Notes: generated by a model from the letters alone, not told the origin. Shown: positions 10,352 to 40,687, counted from the stretch's first letter. The stretch is DNA of 41,045 nt from Nitrospirota bacterium (GCA_027021335.1 JALUUO010000062.1:1-41045), one strand, 5' to 3'. Numbers and translations: made by a program.

Positions 10352-11266
10352 CTAGTTGTCAATCCTATTCTTCTTCATTTTCCGCATATGAGCAATATCC
10401 TTTTCTGCTTTTTGTTCCCGTCTTTGTAACTGCTGTTTTCTAACCTCAGCCAATTTTTTACGGTGTTCAGCAGCCTTAACCTTAGCTTCATCGCTGACAT
10501 CAAAATCGCCCTCGCCAAAAAGAGCAAACCTAAGCCATTTAAGGGAAAACTTAAGCAGTTCAATTTCATTATCTCGAATCTTATCCACCAGGTCAGGTTT
10601 AAGTTTATAAGCAGATAGGAACCTGCTTTCAAATACAAACTTCCTGAACATGTCGAGATTTGAGCTTACCATAAAGAAAAGATCAAGGGAACCTTTGCTG
10701 AACTCCATCATACCAAGGCTTTTGGCCTTAATCACTATTTCCAGCCAGTCACGGGTAATGCTGTCATGAAAATCGACACCCTGATCTTCTCTCCACTCAT
10801 TAATAGTCCACTCCTTATCTTCTTGGTGTCCTAGGCAGTGATCCTCTTTAACCAACACAAAAAACTCCCGCAGTTCGGGCTGATCAACCTTTTTCATATG
10901 AACACGACCTATAGGGTAGTACCTACATGTGGACGGACGATCCGTATAAACGCTACAACCATCCTGCCCTGAAAGAAACGGACAAGTTTTTGTTTCATCA
11001 TCCAACAGTTTTAGAACCACTATCGGTAAAGGCGTTCTATCAATCGCTGCTGGCTGCGTATATTTAATGAGGAACTCATCGTACGACAACCCAAGCCGGT
11101 TTTTCAGACGAAAAATATCGTAGGGGGTAAGATTTATCCGCATAGCGCTGCAACACTTATTAAAGCATCCGATTCCTGGGTAACATTTGAACTTGAACCT
11201 GTCAGAAGCGCTCAATTCACGAGGTTCAATAACTCCCTTTTCGATATCAATATTTAATTTATCCAT
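10352..11266 (-). CDS. YkgJ-family cysteine-cluster protein
   Basis: A 304-residue protein with the YkgJ / CxxCxxCC-family metal-binding pattern: CYPGIGCFNKCCSAM near residue 30, CPFLSGQDGC near residue 95, then RPSTCRYYPIGR and a later Cys in EDHCLG. The family is thought to bind zinc or an Fe-S cluster and has been linked in places to protein modification, but no specific role can be assigned. The last ~45 residues are highly charged and probably coiled. It lies downstream of the hppA terminator and is likely transcribed from its own promoter in the ~60 bases before its start, which I could not resolve. Confidence 0.85.
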   Translation of the reverse strand: MDKLNIDIEKGVIEPRELSASDRFKFKCYPGIGCFNKCCSAMRINLTPYDIFRLKNRLGLSYDEFLIKYTQPAAIDRTPLPIVVLKLLDDETKTCPFLSGQDGCSVYTDRPSTCRYYPIGRVHMKKVDQPELREFFVLVKEDHCLGHQEDKEWTINEWREDQGVDFHDSITRDWLEIVIKAKSLGMMEFSKGSLDLFFMVSSNLDMFRKFVFESRFLSAYKLKPDLVDKIRDNEIELLKFSLKWLRFALFGEGDFDVSDEAKVKAAEHRKKLAEVRKQQLQRREQKAEKDIAHMRKMKKNRIDN

Positions 11267-36099: not shown

Positions 36100-36144
36100 T
36101 TTTATTAGAGTCTGTCCATAAATAAATTGCCTTTTTTTATTTTT

Positions 36145-36233
36145 GTCATACCCGAAGTCCTTTAGTCGGGTATCCAGAACTCATTGAAAATAATTGAAAA
36201 TACTGGATTCCGGCTTAAAGACTGCCGGAATGA
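36145..36233. repeat. inverted pair of REP-like palindromic elements
   Basis: Two related ~32-base elements face each other. 36145-36177 runs GTCAT...ATCCAG and contains a TACCCGA/TCGGGTA stem. 36203-36233, read on the minus strand, runs GTCAT...ATCCAG and contains a TTCCGGC/GCCGGAA stem. Both share the loop wording AGTCtTTaAG. Such pairs are typical dispersed intergenic repeats. It lies between the lipid-kinase gene and intI, whose 3' ends face each other, and may also help end transcription from both sides. Confidence 0.75.
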
Positions 36234-36306
36234 CAGGCAGAGTGACTGAGTTTATGGAGAAGCTCTAATTACTTATTATTGAAAGCCTTCACATACAGTT
36301 AAAAAG

Positions 36307-37677
36307 TTAAAAATCTAGCGGACTCCTTGCCTCTTTGAATGTCCGTGACTTTATGGTGTGGGTGTAAATCATGGTTGTCCGCACATCACTATGCCCTAAA
36401 AGTTTCTGTATTGTTCGGATATCATAATTTGCCTGCAACAGGTGGCTGGCAAAGCTGTGCCTGAAAGTATGGGCGGTTGCTCTTTTTAGAAGTTGAGCTT
36501 CTCGAACGGCTTTTTTTATAGCCTTCTGAACGTGGGTGTGATGAAGGTGAGAACGCCTTATCTCATTGGAACCCGCAACCTTGGTTAACTGCTTTGCAGG
36601 AAAGAACCACTGCCATACCAATTCCTTAGCGCAGTTTTTATATTTATTCTCAATTAAACTAAACATGAAGGCGCCGTTATAACCAATATCCAAATCCTTT
36701 TGGTGTAATTTTTTAACCCGTTCCAGGTGTGCTTTCAGTTCCGGCATAAGTGTTTCCGGCAACGGAACTGTCCGGTCTTTTTTCCCCTTGCCGTCATGTA
36801 TTGTCAAAACACCGGTGTTGAAATTAAAACTGTTAATTCTCAAGTTCATGCATTCAAACAAACGAAGTCCGCATCCGTAAAGTAGTTTGGCTATCAAATC
36901 ATAAGGATAAGGAAGTTTGGCAATAACTGCATCAATCTCCTCACGGGACAAAACAACAGGTATATAAAGTTTTCTTTTTGCCCTCACATTATCCGTATGA
37001 TCGCCGAAATCCTTCCTGAGAACGTGCCTGAAGAAGAAAAGCAGTGCATTAAAAGCCTGGTTCTGAGTAGACGCCGCAACATTGCGTTTGACCGCGAGGT
37101 AGGTAAGAAATTCCTTTACATCCGCACTGGACAGCAATTCAGGAGCTTTGTTCCGGGTAAAACCTTGAAATTTCTTTGCCCAAATAGAATACGCTTTCAG
37201 AGTTTTGGGAGAATAATGCCTCGTCTTGATTTCTGCCGACAGATCTGCAAGTGCCTTGTTCCAGTGAAAACTCGCAGTACCCGAAAAATTATCAGACCTC
37301 GACTTTCCTTGTTGAGGCGAGGCCTCTGAAGGTGAAGGTACAACCTTCTTTGCTGTTTCCGCGGACCGAATCCCTCCTTTGTTCGGCTTCGTATTGCCCT
37401 GCGACACCGTTTTGCCGGATGTCCGGAGAAGCTGGTAATACAGAGATATGGCATGAGCAGCCTGTTCCTGCTGATCAGATGTCTGATTTTTCTTCCGCAG
37501 TTCGGCGATGAATTGTGTCAGACTTTCCTTGTTCGAGTCCTTCATTTCATATTTAAAACAGAAGTCCAGGTAGAATCGTAACCATTTTTTGTAATAACTG
37601 TGTTGAGCGGTGGGGACTGCACGTTTTACAAGCATTGCCTGAAAACGGGTCAGAATATCGCGCGGGATATTAATCAT
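36307..37677 (-). CDS. intI: integron integrase with an extended N-terminus
   Basis: A 456-residue tyrosine recombinase. Catalytic residues are visible: Arg272 (LLYGCGLRLFE), Lys near 300 (GKGKKDR), His403-x-x-Arg406 (HTFRHSFASHLL), His429 (LLGHSDVRTTM) and Tyr438. What makes it an integron integrase is the family-specific insertion at ~355-395 (WQWFFPAKQ...RRSHLHHTHVQKAIKKAV) and the ARSPLD end, both matching IntI. Typical IntI has 320-340 residues; here ~130 extra N-terminal residues hold what looks like a second SAM-like core-binding domain (residues ~22-85) joined by a disordered linker. It is transcribed away from the cassettes, the standard integron layout. Confidence 0.92.
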   Translation of the reverse strand: MINIPRDILTRFQAMLVKRAVPTAQHSYYKKWLRFYLDFCFKYEMKDSNKESLTQFIAELRKKNQTSDQQEQAAHAISLYYQLLRTSGKTVSQGNTKPNKGGIRSAETAKKVVPSPSEASPQQGKSRSDNFSGTASFHWNKALADLSAEIKTRHYSPKTLKAYSIWAKKFQGFTRNKAPELLSSADVKEFLTYLAVKRNVAASTQNQAFNALLFFFRHVLRKDFGDHTDNVRAKRKLYIPVVLSREEIDAVIAKLPYPYDLIAKLLYGCGLRLFECMNLRINSFNFNTGVLTIHDGKGKKDRTVPLPETLMPELKAHLERVKKLHQKDLDIGYNGAFMFSLIENKYKNCAKELVWQWFFPAKQLTKVAGSNEIRRSHLHHTHVQKAIKKAVREAQLLKRATAHTFRHSFASHLLQANYDIRTIQKLLGHSDVRTTMIYTHTIKSRTFKEARSPLDF

Positions 37678-37701
37678 GTAAGAATATCAATAAATTGTAT
37701 A

Positions 37702-37731
37702 AATGTAAGATTTGTAATGTTATACAGTTAA
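37702..37731 (-). promoter_or_regulatory. putative intI promoter overlapping a LexA-like box
   Basis: On the minus strand TTAACT (37731-37726) and TACATT (37707-37702) are 18 bases apart. Between and across them lies CTGTATAACATTACAA (37727-37712), which matches the CTGT-N8-ACAG SOS box of gammaproteobacteria except for the last base. LexA control of intI is known in other integrons. LexA boxes of Desulfobacterota can differ, so the match needs care. Confidence 0.45.
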
Positions 37732-37914
37732 CTAATGATAGTAAAACAAAGTTTTTTTGTCAATTATGATGGATTCGTAAAAGTCAGAAAGTGCCTAAAT
37801 GTCATTTTAAGCATTGAAAAATATTAATGTTATCAATGTGTTATAAAAGTAATATTTCCAGCTTAGCTTGAAATGACAGGCTTTTCGAAGTTTTTACGAA
37901 CACATCAATTATTA

Positions 37915-37943
37915 TTGACAAAAAGAATAAAACTCGGTAGTTT
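37915..37943 (+). promoter_or_regulatory. candidate cassette promoter (Pc)
   Basis: TTGACA (37915-37920), a perfect -35 box, lies 17 bases before TAGTTT (37938-37943), a modest -10. A stand-alone TATAAT sits at 37954-37959 just before the attI core. Position and direction fit the promoter that drives first cassettes in integrons. Which -10 is used cannot be decided from sequence. Confidence 0.5.
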
Positions 37944-38019
37944 AAAGAAACTTTATAATTACTTGTTATGTTTGCAGGCATTAACAGCCATAATCTATGT
38001 GAGTGCCCAGGAGGGCAAC

Positions 38020-38181
38020 ATGAATCAACGCAACTATGCATTAAAACTTATGGTTCATGAATCGGCTGGTTCACCCAGCCTCGACTCAAAGGTTCATTCA
38101 GTATCTCTGAGTGACCTGAATTCCATAGCATTATTGCGACGATTAACGAGCTGCCTGGGCACTCACTCCAAAAAGCCATGA
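38020..38181 (+). CDS. 53-residue ORF heading cassette 1, translationally coupled to RAMP-TIR
   Basis: An ATG at 38020 follows AGGAGGG with ideal spacing, the strongest ribosome site in the cassette. The 53-residue product (begins MNQRNYALKLMVHESAG) has no recognised domain, no signal peptide and no membrane segment. It stops in ATGA overlapping the RAMP-TIR start (38178). Short leader ORFs in or beside attI are known to boost translation of first-cassette genes, so this may serve as a translation enhancer, a small antitoxin-like partner, or the remnant of an earlier gene. The frame is open upstream to 37873, but the 38020 start is far better supported. Confidence 0.55.
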   Translation: MNQRNYALKLMVHESAGSPSLDSKVHSVSLSDLNSIALLRRLTSCLGTHSKKP

Positions 38182-39605
38182 AAGAACTGATTTCAAAGAG
38201 ATATTTGGCTCTCGCATTGGAACCGATCCATATCGGGAGTCAGAGCAAATCAACTCCTTCAGCAACTGCAAGAGATGTTGACGGCTTTCCGTTTATTCCA
38301 GCTTCATCTTTGAAGGGCAGCGTAAGGTCATTATCGGCCGGTCTATTCAAATTTGAGGGTTGTGACGGAAAAGGGTGGCATTGTCCACAACCACATAAAT
38401 GTCCGTCTTGCTCGGTATTCGGTTTCGCTAATTTCCATGCAGGGACAGCTTCAAGCCTTGTTCGCTTTTCGTCGGCGAGTATGGTCTTAATTCCTATTAA
38501 ATCTGAATTCGGAGTTTTTTGGCTTTCATCGTGGTATAGGCTGTCGAAAATAGGATTGGTGCCTGAGCCTTCGGAATCAAATAAAAAGCATTGGGCTTTT
38601 GGTGAACAAATCCAGGACTTACAAATAGAGTGGTTAAGAAAAAATCTAAAATTAGATATTGATCCCAAAACAGAGAAAATATCTACCCAAGAATGGATAG
38701 GCCCATCTGATTTAAGGGATACGTATGAGCGTGCCATTGTTATAGATGAATATAGTCTTTCTTCTCTCTTCGGTTTTTTTACGGGGCTTTCAACATCAAT
38801 ATCAATAGACGGTCTTACAGGACGCGCAAGGGACGGTGCACTTTTTGAGGTTGAACATATTAATCGGATGTCTGTTCTCTGTTTTGAAATAGTTTATATT
38901 AATCCAATACTACGTGGCATCCGACAGTTTATAAATAATCAGAGCCTTACTAATGTTGAGATTCCAGCGGATATTGAGCACGTTGAGCAAATAATTCAAA
39001 GTGGTCTTGAAAAGTTAAAATTCTATGGAATAGGTGGAAAGCGAAGCAGAGGGTATGGCAGATTAAAGATCTGGGAACTTCCATCAATAGAAGACCTATC
39101 CAACGGGGAGCAGGATTTTTTAATTCCTCCTCGCAGTTCTGTCCCACTTATTTTTATATCTTACTCCTCAAAAAATGTTTCTATTGCCAGACGTCTTGCC
39201 GCAGACCTCCAATCTGAGCAAATGGATGTATGGTTGGACGAAAAGAAAATATTGGTTGGTGATTCGATTCATCAGAAAGTTGAAGAAGGGATTTCAAAAT
39301 GTGATTACTTAATTTTATTAGTATCTCAAGATTCTATGCGGTCTAATTGGGTTCAAGATGAAATAAATGCAGTCCGGACTAGAGAAAAAAGCCATAGCAA
39401 AACAATCCTTCTACCTGCCCTTTTACCGGATGTAGATAGTGCATGCTTGCCATCCCTTCTTTGTGATAAGAAGTTCACTAAATTTGCGCCCAAATATGAA
39501 GACGGACTAAGGGAATTAATTGAGTCAATAAAGGGTCATGAAAATCGAAAAATAGAAAAACATAACAAGGCTAATTCAGCCGACGCAAAAAAGCCGCGCG
39601 GCTGA
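38178..39605 (+). CDS. RAMP (Cas7/Csm3-Cmr4-like) - TIR fusion protein
   Basis: A 475-residue two-domain protein. Residues ~8-300 are a RAMP domain: LEPIHIGSQSK, then FPFIPASSLKGSVRSL (the Cas7 thumb-proximal IPxSSLKGxxR signature), a Cys cluster with Cys62, 69, 75 and 78 ending CPSCSVFG as in Csm3/Cmr4 zinc sites, and the closing glycine-rich loop GIGGKRSRGYG (284-294) typical of RAMPs. Residues ~322-465 form a TIR domain (IFISYSSKN, WLDEKKILVGDS, ...SNWVQDE with the putative catalytic Glu395). From family knowledge RAMPs bind RNA and many bacterial TIRs degrade NAD+. I infer an RNA-sensing NADase effector for abortive defence. No cas10, other cas gene or CRISPR array is nearby. The stop lies inside the attC. 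Confidence 0.88.
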   Translation: MKELISKRYLALALEPIHIGSQSKSTPSATARDVDGFPFIPASSLKGSVRSLSAGLFKFEGCDGKGWHCPQPHKCPSCSVFGFANFHAGTASSLVRFSSASMVLIPIKSEFGVFWLSSWYRLSKIGLVPEPSESNKKHWAFGEQIQDLQIEWLRKNLKLDIDPKTEKISTQEWIGPSDLRDTYERAIVIDEYSLSSLFGFFTGLSTSISIDGLTGRARDGALFEVEHINRMSVLCFEIVYINPILRGIRQFINNQSLTNVEIPADIEHVEQIIQSGLEKLKFYGIGGKRSRGYGRLKIWELPSIEDLSNGEQDFLIPPRSSVPLIFISYSSKNVSIARRLAADLQSEQMDVWLDEKKILVGDSIHQKVEEGISKCDYLILLVSQDSMRSNWVQDEINAVRTREKSHSKTILLPALLPDVDSACLPSLLCDKKFTKFAPKYEDGLRELIESIKGHENRKIEKHNKANSADAKKPRG

Positions 39606-39620
39606 TTAGCAGCGTTATGC
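39560..39620 (+). other. attC site of cassette 1
   Basis: A 61-base imperfect palindrome with all attC parts. R'' is ACATAAC, followed by spacer AAG, L'' GCTAATTCAGCCG, an AAAAAA loop region, L' CGGCTGATTAGC, spacer AGC and R' GTTATGC (39614-39620). The arms pair as GCTAAT and CAGCCG with one extra T in the L'' strand, the extrahelical base that sets strand choice for the integrase. It resembles attC sites of well-studied mobile integrons. The TGA of the RAMP-TIR gene (39603-39605) lies inside it. Confidence 0.9.
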
Positions 39621-39639
39621 AAAAAAATGGATCAAATTA

Positions 39640-39984
39640 ATGAAGTTGTATTACTACGCAATTGATGGCGATGACATTGGAGCGTGTCTTGAAAAACATG
39701 CGTTATCCAATGACTTGGAAGCAATTCGATATTTGTCGACTAATGTCTACAAATGCCTTGATAATATAAAAACATATTTAGAAGAAAATTCCGCTACTAT
39801 AGTATTTTGTGGTGGAGATAGCATACTAGCAACATCAGAAAATCGAATAGAAATAACTATTGATAAATTGACATTTGGGGAGTTTAGTTTTTCTGCTGGA
39901 ATTGGCGATACGTGTTGCAATGCAACACTCGCACTCAAGAAAGCAAAAGGTCTTGGCAAAAAACGTATTGAGGTAATGCTATGA
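39640..39984 (+). CDS. minimal CRISPR polymerase (mCpol), OptS-like nucleotide cyclase
   Basis: A 114-residue single-domain protein of the mCpol family, a Cas10/GGDEF-related nucleotidyl cyclase. Motifs: the metal-binding YYAIDGDDIG near the start (Asp9, Asp11, Asp12), the beta-hairpin VFCGGDSIL (GGDS at 58-61 in place of GGDD), and FSAGIGDT...ALKKAKGLGKKRIEV at the end. In the Panoptes system the mCpol protein OptS makes a cyclic dinucleotide all the time. The second Asp of GGDD is Ser here, so activity should be tested. It overlaps the CARF gene by ATGA. A seven-codon leader (ATG at 39617, stop overlapping this start as TAATG) precedes it; the ribosome site is weak (GGAT). Confidence 0.88.
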   Translation: MKLYYYAIDGDDIGACLEKHALSNDLEAIRYLSTNVYKCLDNIKTYLEENSATIVFCGGDSILATSENRIEITIDKLTFGEFSFSAGIGDTCCNATLALKKAKGLGKKRIEVML

Positions 39985-40625
39985 AAGCAAAGCTTCTAGT
40001 TCAAAGTGATAAGGTCGAAACGTATATAAATGTAATGGCCGCTTTATGTGATAAATATCCAGTCAAACAAATCATGCTTTCTTTCATAGAAAAGGAGCCT
40101 GACGAATCATTCATCAATGAGATTCAATCCAAATTAGTTGAGCTGTCTAGTCGCCCAAACTATTCAAAAGCATCAAGGGTTTTGCTGGAGGGAGAAGCCG
40201 CGAATAGTGATCATGTCTTATTGGTTAAAGGTTGGGATGTAGTAGATGTTACAGGTGTTAGCAAAGAAGTGGCAATTAATATCTCTGCTGCATCTATTGG
40301 TAATAAAAAAGTACATGTATGTCAATTAAGCTGGAAACAGCGGTTCAAAAGAGATGAAGAGTGGATATTAAAAGAAGGTAATCATTATTATACGGATTTA
40401 ATGAGCACAGGTGCGTTATCAAAGTTGTATCATGAATATTTCCAAAAAAAGCATGTGATTATAGCGTTTGGTGTTCTTTTTTCAATAGTTTTCAGTGTTG
40501 CTATAGCAAAAATAGTTTGGCCTACATTTATAGTTCCAGAAGATGTGGTAAATTTGTTTAGTTTATTAATTGGTGCAGCAGGGTTGTATTTAGCAATCAT
40601 GAGCCTAAGAAGCAAAAATGCATAA
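39981..40625 (+). CDS. CARF-like sensor with two C-terminal membrane helices (OptE-like effector)
   Basis: A 214-residue protein. Residues ~1-120 form a Rossmann-like domain with the CARF hallmark DVTGVSKEVAINISAAS (residues 89-105; D-x-T-G-x-x-K) and a following strand KVHVCQLSW. A linker leads to two hydrophobic helices at ~158-180 and ~186-208. From the Panoptes and related systems I infer that the CARF domain binds the cyclic nucleotide from the mCpol partner and controls a pore or membrane-disrupting helical pair. Known OptE proteins are membrane effectors held off by the nucleotide; here the sensor precedes the helices. Start is ATGA-coupled with GAGG eight bases upstream. Confidence 0.82.
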   Translation: MKAKLLVQSDKVETYINVMAALCDKYPVKQIMLSFIEKEPDESFINEIQSKLVELSSRPNYSKASRVLLEGEAANSDHVLLVKGWDVVDVTGVSKEVAINISAASIGNKKVHVCQLSWKQRFKRDEEWILKEGNHYYTDLMSTGALSKLYHEYFQKKHVIIAFGVLFSIVFSVAIAKIVWPTFIVPEDVVNLFSLLIGAAGLYLAIMSLRSKNA

Positions 40626-40687
40626 CAAAATAAGGATTAGTCCTGAGTCGAACGAAGTGAGTGCTCATGACTAATCCCTGGTTCAAG
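40620..40687 (+). other. degenerate attC site of cassette 2
   Basis: R'' GCATAAC (40620-40626), spacer AAAATAA, arm GGATTAGTC with a mismatch then TGAG, loop, arm CTCA-GACTAATCC, spacer CTG and R' GTTCAAG (40681-40687). The stem is strong, but only the AAC/GTT triplet of R''/R' pairs, as expected if R' comes from a different neighbour. The unequal spacers (7 and 3) are unusual. The hairpin could also serve as a terminator for the mCpol operon. Confidence 0.65.

Follow-up and report, generated by a model that had tools for sequence, protein, structure and literature searches.

Can pieces of type III CRISPR (clustered regularly interspaced short palindromic repeats) signalling be carried as integron cassettes, and what would they do there? 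The question is raised by a 41,045-nucleotide stretch of a Nitrospirota bacterium (GCA_027021335.1 JALUUO010000062.1:1-41045), which we call the window and which is the entire contig C62 of a 2.7-Mb, 121-contig genome. Close to its end an integron integrase gene is followed by two cassettes, of which one encodes a RAMP domain fused to a TIR domain and the other a minimal CRISPR polymerase (mCpol) together with a CARF protein with two transmembrane helices (CARF-2TM). The original prediction, made from the window alone, described an integron with cargo derived from type III CRISPR systems, and this description is supported by our analysis. With a probability of roughly 0.55, we propose that this chromosomal integron carries two anti-phage cassettes, a RAMP-TIR abortive-infection effector and a guard of the Panoptes type. 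The features are listed in Table 1.

The integron and its recombination sites

The integrase scored 371.7 bits with the integron-integrase model TIGR02249, for which the cut-off is 265. Its N-terminus contains a duplicated SAM-like domain, seen in Pfam as two Phage_int_SAM_4 stretches, and is extended by about 140 aa. Such an extension is common among the integron integrases of this class, most of which have 406-544 aa compared with 337 aa in IntI1; in the sequences L051-L090 the N-terminus was seen to exceed that of IntI1 by roughly 70-200 aa. A tree was calculated from the window integrase, 37 integrases of the same class, IntI1, a second integrase of the genome and the two Xer-type recombinases of the host. 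The window integrase grouped inside the integron integrases, whereas the host's own Xer-type proteins were placed outside at 100/100. It is thus of the IntI type, as had been claimed, and its assignment as a Xer recombinase was rejected.

The attI site was located by comparison with a sister integron on contig C99. This contains a broken copy of the window integrase, with internal stops and pieces 84-95% identical, preceded by ~340 bp that are nearly the same as in the window. In the alignment the two sequences are near identical through ACTTGTTA and diverge directly afterwards. Because two copies of one attI carry different first cassettes here, the crossover can be placed at G37965^T37966, so that the putative attI of the original prediction, adjoining intI and with insertion at G^TT, was borne out. 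The first cassette on C99 (L012:9285-11555) encodes a 287-aa FRG-domain protein, PDC-S15-like, and has an attC at 11178-11265. Less can be said for the divergent cassette promoter (Pc): there is a weak candidate with TTGACA at 37915, which is kept in the sister integron, there with TATTTT, but the promoter scan did not call it.

For the attC sites we used a covariance model trained on 17 attCs from class 1 cassettes and related integrons, none of them from the window. The site attC1, which terminates cassette 1 (37966-39614), scored 51.1 bits (E=7.5e-12) on the bottom strand and 13.1 bits on the opposite strand. With the same model, the class 1 attCs, which had helped to train it, reach 45-69 bits, and the next-best other match in the 41 kb had 11.6 bits. 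The fold of attC1 gave z=-4.7, and its pattern score was 16.4, compared with at most ~13 in 123 kb of simulated sequence.

The site after cassette 2 (39615 to about 40680) was not recognised by the covariance model, staying below 7.5 bits. At the level of the model it was thus rejected as a normal attC, and it was kept as a candidate that is degenerate at best. It overlaps the stop codon and its fold gave z=-4.2; its layout, AAC followed by a 9-bp stem and GTT, is the only one of its kind in the window, and chance seldom produces it, with 9 occurrences in 820 kb of simulated sequence. Cassette 1 starts with GTTATGT, the exact reverse complement of which is the R'' box of attC1, ACATAAC; the R'' box after cassette 2, GCATAAC, matches in the same way the cassette 2 start, GTTATGC. 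Both agreements are as expected of intact cassettes.

The claim of two attC-bounded cassettes therefore holds for the first cassette, whose attC lies far above background, while the second ends in a half-site and a hairpin that score at background. Nor can the integron be called complete, as it had been, because the contig ends at 41045, 358 bp past the candidate attC2. We looked for a continuation of the array on the other contigs and found no join; contig C35 has an attC of 27 bits and shares no sequence with the array. The integron itself is real, and recombination of these sites by the integrase is predicted from their sequences.

Table 1. Positions of the integron features in the window
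Feature	Position	Strand	Details	Basis
intI, integron integrase	36307..37677	-	456 aa	TIGR02249 E=3.2e-111
Promoter-like site for intI	37735..37763	-	TTGACA-17-TATCAT, 11/12	Consensus match only
Weak Pc candidate facing the cassettes	37915..37943	+	TTGACA, 17 nt, TAGTTT	Sequence
attI core	37959..37972	+	Around ACTTG^TTATGT	End of identity with C99
Small open reading frame	38020..38181	+	53 aa; strong AGGAGG-like ribosome-binding site upstream	Sequence
RAMP-TIR	38178..39605	+	475 aa; Cmr4-type RAMP (~residues 7-300), TIR_2 (325-448)	Pfam, PADLOC, AlphaFold2/Foldseek
attC1, canonical	39560..39620	+	R'' ACATAAC, R' GTTATGC; active structure on bottom strand	Covariance model, fold, pattern
mCpol, OptS-like	39640..39984	+	114 aa; motifs DGDD and GGDS	PF18182 1.6e-32
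CARF-2TM protein	39981..40625	+	214 aa; ATGA overlap with mCpol	PADLOC CARF_m9--CARF_TM 1.7e-39
Candidate attC2, degenerate	40620..40687	+	R'' GCATAAC, symmetric 9-bp stem, core GTT in R' GTTCAAG	Layout, fold

The proteins encoded by the two cassettes

The fusion expected in the first cassette was confirmed by Pfam, with matches to RAMPs (6.8e-19) and TIR_2 (2e-23), and by PADLOC, in which Cmr4 was the best model for the RAMP part (2.3e-21); with the NCBIfam Cmr4 equivalog the RAMP part scored 45.3 bits, below the cut-off of 87. In an AlphaFold2 model built with 34 Cmr4 relatives this part was well modelled, and its best Foldseek matches in the PDB were Cmr4 proteins of type III-B complexes. 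It keeps the zinc cysteines 62/69/75/78, SLxGxxR, the TS..ID..TG thumb segment and the RGxGR loop. An aspartate present in 83 of the 85 relatives in the alignment, which we take to be the slicer residue of Cmr4/Csm3, is replaced by Pro27, and the loop in which it lies is three residues shorter. In the TIR part, Glu395 of the motif NWVQDEI (the W..xE segment) aligns with the glutamate of bacterial TIR NADases (enzymes that cleave nicotinamide adenine dinucleotide, NAD), including AbTIR. Judged by these residues, RAMP-TIR may be an NADase triggered through a slicing-dead RAMP. The 53-aa open reading frame before it, which overlaps its start by ATGA, could possibly encode a partner or an antitoxin; the longer frame containing it gave no match in Pfam, NCBIfam or PADLOC.

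Relatives of the RAMP part were collected from ~85,000 genomes using patterns from Csx11-type Cmr4s. The 80 nearest were all Cmr4-like with other cmr-type genes alongside, and none had a TIR match in the fetched stretch. The share that adjoins Csx11 (65 of the 80) is biased, because the patterns came from Csx11-type Cmr4s. Identity to Csx11-associated Cmr4s was ~30-34%. No full-length relative of RAMP-TIR was found in 231 genomes of the class, in 396 of the phylum, or among plasmids, phages, viral contigs and genome contigs, and an alignment scan yielded only ordinary Cmr4s. In the open-access literature the fusion had no match by the terms tried. Of the cargo, RAMP-TIR is the component that merits further work, and it appears to be new.

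The pair of mCpol and a CARF membrane protein predicted for the second cassette was identified by the family models given in Table 1. The closest solved proteins to mCpol are the Panoptes OptS/mCpol structures 9mnr (8.8e-13) and 9nwn. By hydropathy, the two C-terminal transmembrane helices of the CARF protein lie at residues ~157-180 and 188-210. The partner of mCpol is a CARF variant and differs from the S-2TM-beta effector (OptE) that defines Panoptes, so cassette 2 is to be regarded, from its sequence, as Panoptes-like and not as Panoptes proper. Since the layout of mCpol with a 2TM-CARF has been published, as 40% of mCpol operons (PMC12657218), the architecture of the cassette is known and its vehicle is new; the earlier statement that the combination of cargo was not known stands for RAMP-TIR in the collections searched and falls for this pair. 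Neither mCpol nor CARF-TM was found in plasmids, and among the open-access literature searched no paper joined mCpol and an integron.

In another class of the same phylum (L184:116-1615, contig C77 of genome G345) we saw an attC-like site overlapping the end of a HEPN/mCpol-type gene with a disrupted frame; the site, which was in the training set of the covariance model, had a scan score of 14.9. This is possibly a second mCpol cassette and hints that mCpol systems travel in integrons repeatedly. In a survey of that class, just one further strong mCpol locus was found, and it was one already known.

Proposed functions and competing explanations

In the explanation we favour, the slicing-dead, Cmr4-derived RAMP of cassette 1, with its RNA-binding core motifs kept, would be the sensor or docking part of an abortive-infection effector. 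When the RAMP is activated, the TIR domain would destroy NAD+ or make an NAD-derived signal, and the cell would stop. In cassette 2, mCpol would constantly make a cyclic dinucleotide that holds CARF-2TM inactive; phage sponges or phosphodiesterases aimed at CBASS (cyclic oligonucleotide-based antiphage signalling system) or at type III signalling would remove this dinucleotide, and CARF-2TM would then kill the cell. Such a guard would protect especially the CBASS of the same genome, which lies on contig C11 (L200:2764-5632) and contains a patatin phospholipase, a CD-NTase and an E2-like protein. A CBASS of the patatin/E2-like kind has been reported to be coupled to Panoptes (PMC12657218). The guard role is the most likely one for cassette 2 because its mCpol is near OptS and the kind of CBASS coupled to Panoptes is present in the same genome. 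An apparent type I restriction-modification locus surrounds the C11 CBASS, and a PD-Lambda-4_A-like gene follows at some distance.

Several observations weigh against this explanation. RAMP-TIR is a single sequence for which no full-length relatives were found, so selection on it is not measurable. Residues that are near-universal in Cmr4 are changed in it (R205, N149, G151 and D99), and RNA binding may therefore be lost. The TIR part of the AlphaFold2 model was poorly modelled because the alignment had no TIR rows, the single-sequence structure model of CARF-2TM is unreliable (predicted local distance difference test score, pLDDT, 51), and attC2 is not canonical. The sign of the signal in cassette 2 is a further point. 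In type III systems, CARF effectors become active when they bind cyclic nucleotides, and it is possible, if doubtful, that infection switches on mCpol and that its product activates CARF-2TM, which would then make pores in the membrane in the manner of type III CRISPR or CBASS. The authors of the Panoptes work described the variant with a CARF effector without testing it, and they leave open whether mCpol nucleotides inhibit or activate CARF-type effectors, that is, those other than S-2TM-beta (PMC12657218). Such positive logic is opposed by the closeness of the mCpol to OptS enzymes, whose activity is constitutive and, where the effector is 2TM-beta, inhibitory, and by the stand-alone position of the pair with no visible trigger.

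The role of RAMP-TIR has to be seen together with the CRISPR genes of the host. No cas10 or CRISPR is present at the locus, as the original prediction said, but this does not extend to the genome, which has a Csx11-type III-B module with its own Cmr4 on contig C118 and, at the start of C66, remnants in the form of a Cas1 fragment and two Cas2-like open reading frames. No CRISPR array was found beside the C118 module or at the C66 start in the stretches examined. In the host Csx11 (L014:4136-7186) neither a GG[DE]D motif nor a Pfam match was seen, and the sole Cas10-palm match in the genome is the mCpol. An active cyclase in Csx11 was rejected on these grounds, and the cell may have no CRISPR-type cyclase other than mCpol.

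Of the mechanisms for RAMP-TIR, we rank a stand-alone RNA-triggered NADase above a subunit docked in the host III-B complex, and the latter above an anti-CRISPR decoy. Our tentative suggestion is that RAMP-TIR founds a new kind of immune effector, in which a stand-alone, slicing-dead Cas7-type protein would sense RNA or an anti-CRISPR and directly switch a TIR NADase, and which would be spread by integrons beside a cyclic-nucleotide guard. As an accessory subunit, which we regard as rather unlikely, it would occupy a Cmr4 place in the backbone of the Csx11-type complex, target recognition would turn on the TIR domain, and the complex, in which the Cas10-like subunit apparently cannot synthesise cyclic oligoadenylate, would gain an output. 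The resemblance of the RAMP to Csx11-associated Cmr4s, the Csx11 neighbours of its nearest relatives and the host module, in which Csx11 lacks the GG[DE]D motif, speak for docking; yet the gene is carried by a mobile cassette and not among the cmr genes, the RAMP resembles the host's own Cmr4 (34%) about as much as it does others (33%), the Csx11 share carries the collection bias described above, and several residues conserved in the backbone are lost. The joining of a slicing-dead RAMP to a killer domain, next to a guard-type cassette and in a genome that has a type III module for it to protect, would also fit an integrated decoy, whose dead Cmr4-like part baits an anti-CRISPR that attacks Cmr4 and unleashes the TIR on binding, by a guard logic like that of the mCpol cassette. 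No anti-CRISPR against a Csx11-type Cmr4 was identified, however, and we find the decoy improbable. Slightly less probable still are decayed or silent passengers without function, to which the degenerate last attC, the broken integrase of the sister integron and the weak Pc could point: all the reading frames are open, mCpol keeps DGDD and GGDS, the TIR domain keeps its glutamate, and the ATGA overlaps suggest coupled translation.

Related systems, the rest of the genome and the meaning of the cassettes

Chromosomal integrons with anti-phage-type cassettes behind attI (2025, cited in PMC12409362) share this arrangement with the integron of the window, which differs from them in its Nitrospirota host, the N-terminal extension of the integrase, a very short array and the mCpol and RAMP-TIR cargo. 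With Panoptes (optSE, mCpol with S-2TM-beta; PMC12657218, PMC12657230) cassette 2 has in common an OptS-type mCpol that stands alone, its pairing with a 2TM effector in an operon of two genes, and a genome that also encodes a CBASS with an E2-like protein and a patatin effector; here, in contrast, the effector senses through CARF and not through a beta-barrel, and the system sits in an integron cassette.

The RAMP fold, zinc cysteines, thumb and glycine-rich loop are shared with the Cmr4 of Csx11-associated type III-B systems, which also gave the best structural matches, whereas RAMP-TIR has no slicer aspartate, bears a TIR at its C-terminus and has no neighbouring cas genes or array. TIR domains in CRISPR-derived signalling are known from the type III effectors Cat1 (CRISPR-associated TIR 1), which is among the PDB sequence matches of this TIR, and TIR-SAVED; those proteins sense cyclic oligoadenylate through CARF or SAVED, while the partner domain here is a RAMP. 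In SPARTA (short Argonaute-TIR), a slicing-inactive nucleic-acid-binding protein triggers a TIR NADase. RAMP-TIR may be compared with it only in the way it would work, as the RNA-binding folds are unrelated.

Further cassettes are carried by the integrons on C99 and C98 and by a 3-kb attC contig, two of them with predicted-defence models, and the cassettes with FRG/PDC-S15 (C99) and DUF4062/PDC-S60 (C98) look defence-like. On C98 (L011:6599-9050) the third integrase of the genome, of 325 aa, lies beside the DUF4062/PDC-S60-like gene, which is followed by a weak attC-like site (16 bits). On the 3-kb contig, C35 (L196:1198-2237), the attC follows an open reading frame that by eye resembles a restriction endonuclease and had no match in Pfam or PADLOC. 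In the window, an imperfect inverted-repeat element (GTCATACCCGAAG...CCGGAATGAC), dispersed-repeat-like, lies at 36140-36240 between a lipid kinase gene and intI. The host had been called a sulfate reducer; this is plausible, though not proven, because aprA and hdrA-like genes, which fit a sulfur-metabolising anaerobe, are present in the window.

The locus presents CRISPR-derived parts packed as single mobile cassettes, with a Cas7 subunit that apparently now serves as the sensing arm of a TIR protein, and it indicates that an alarm of the Panoptes type is open to capture and shuffling by an integrase. A working RAMP-TIR would be a compact NADase responsive to RNA or to anti-CRISPRs, and it would make testable whether isolated Cas7 proteins act as immune sensors.

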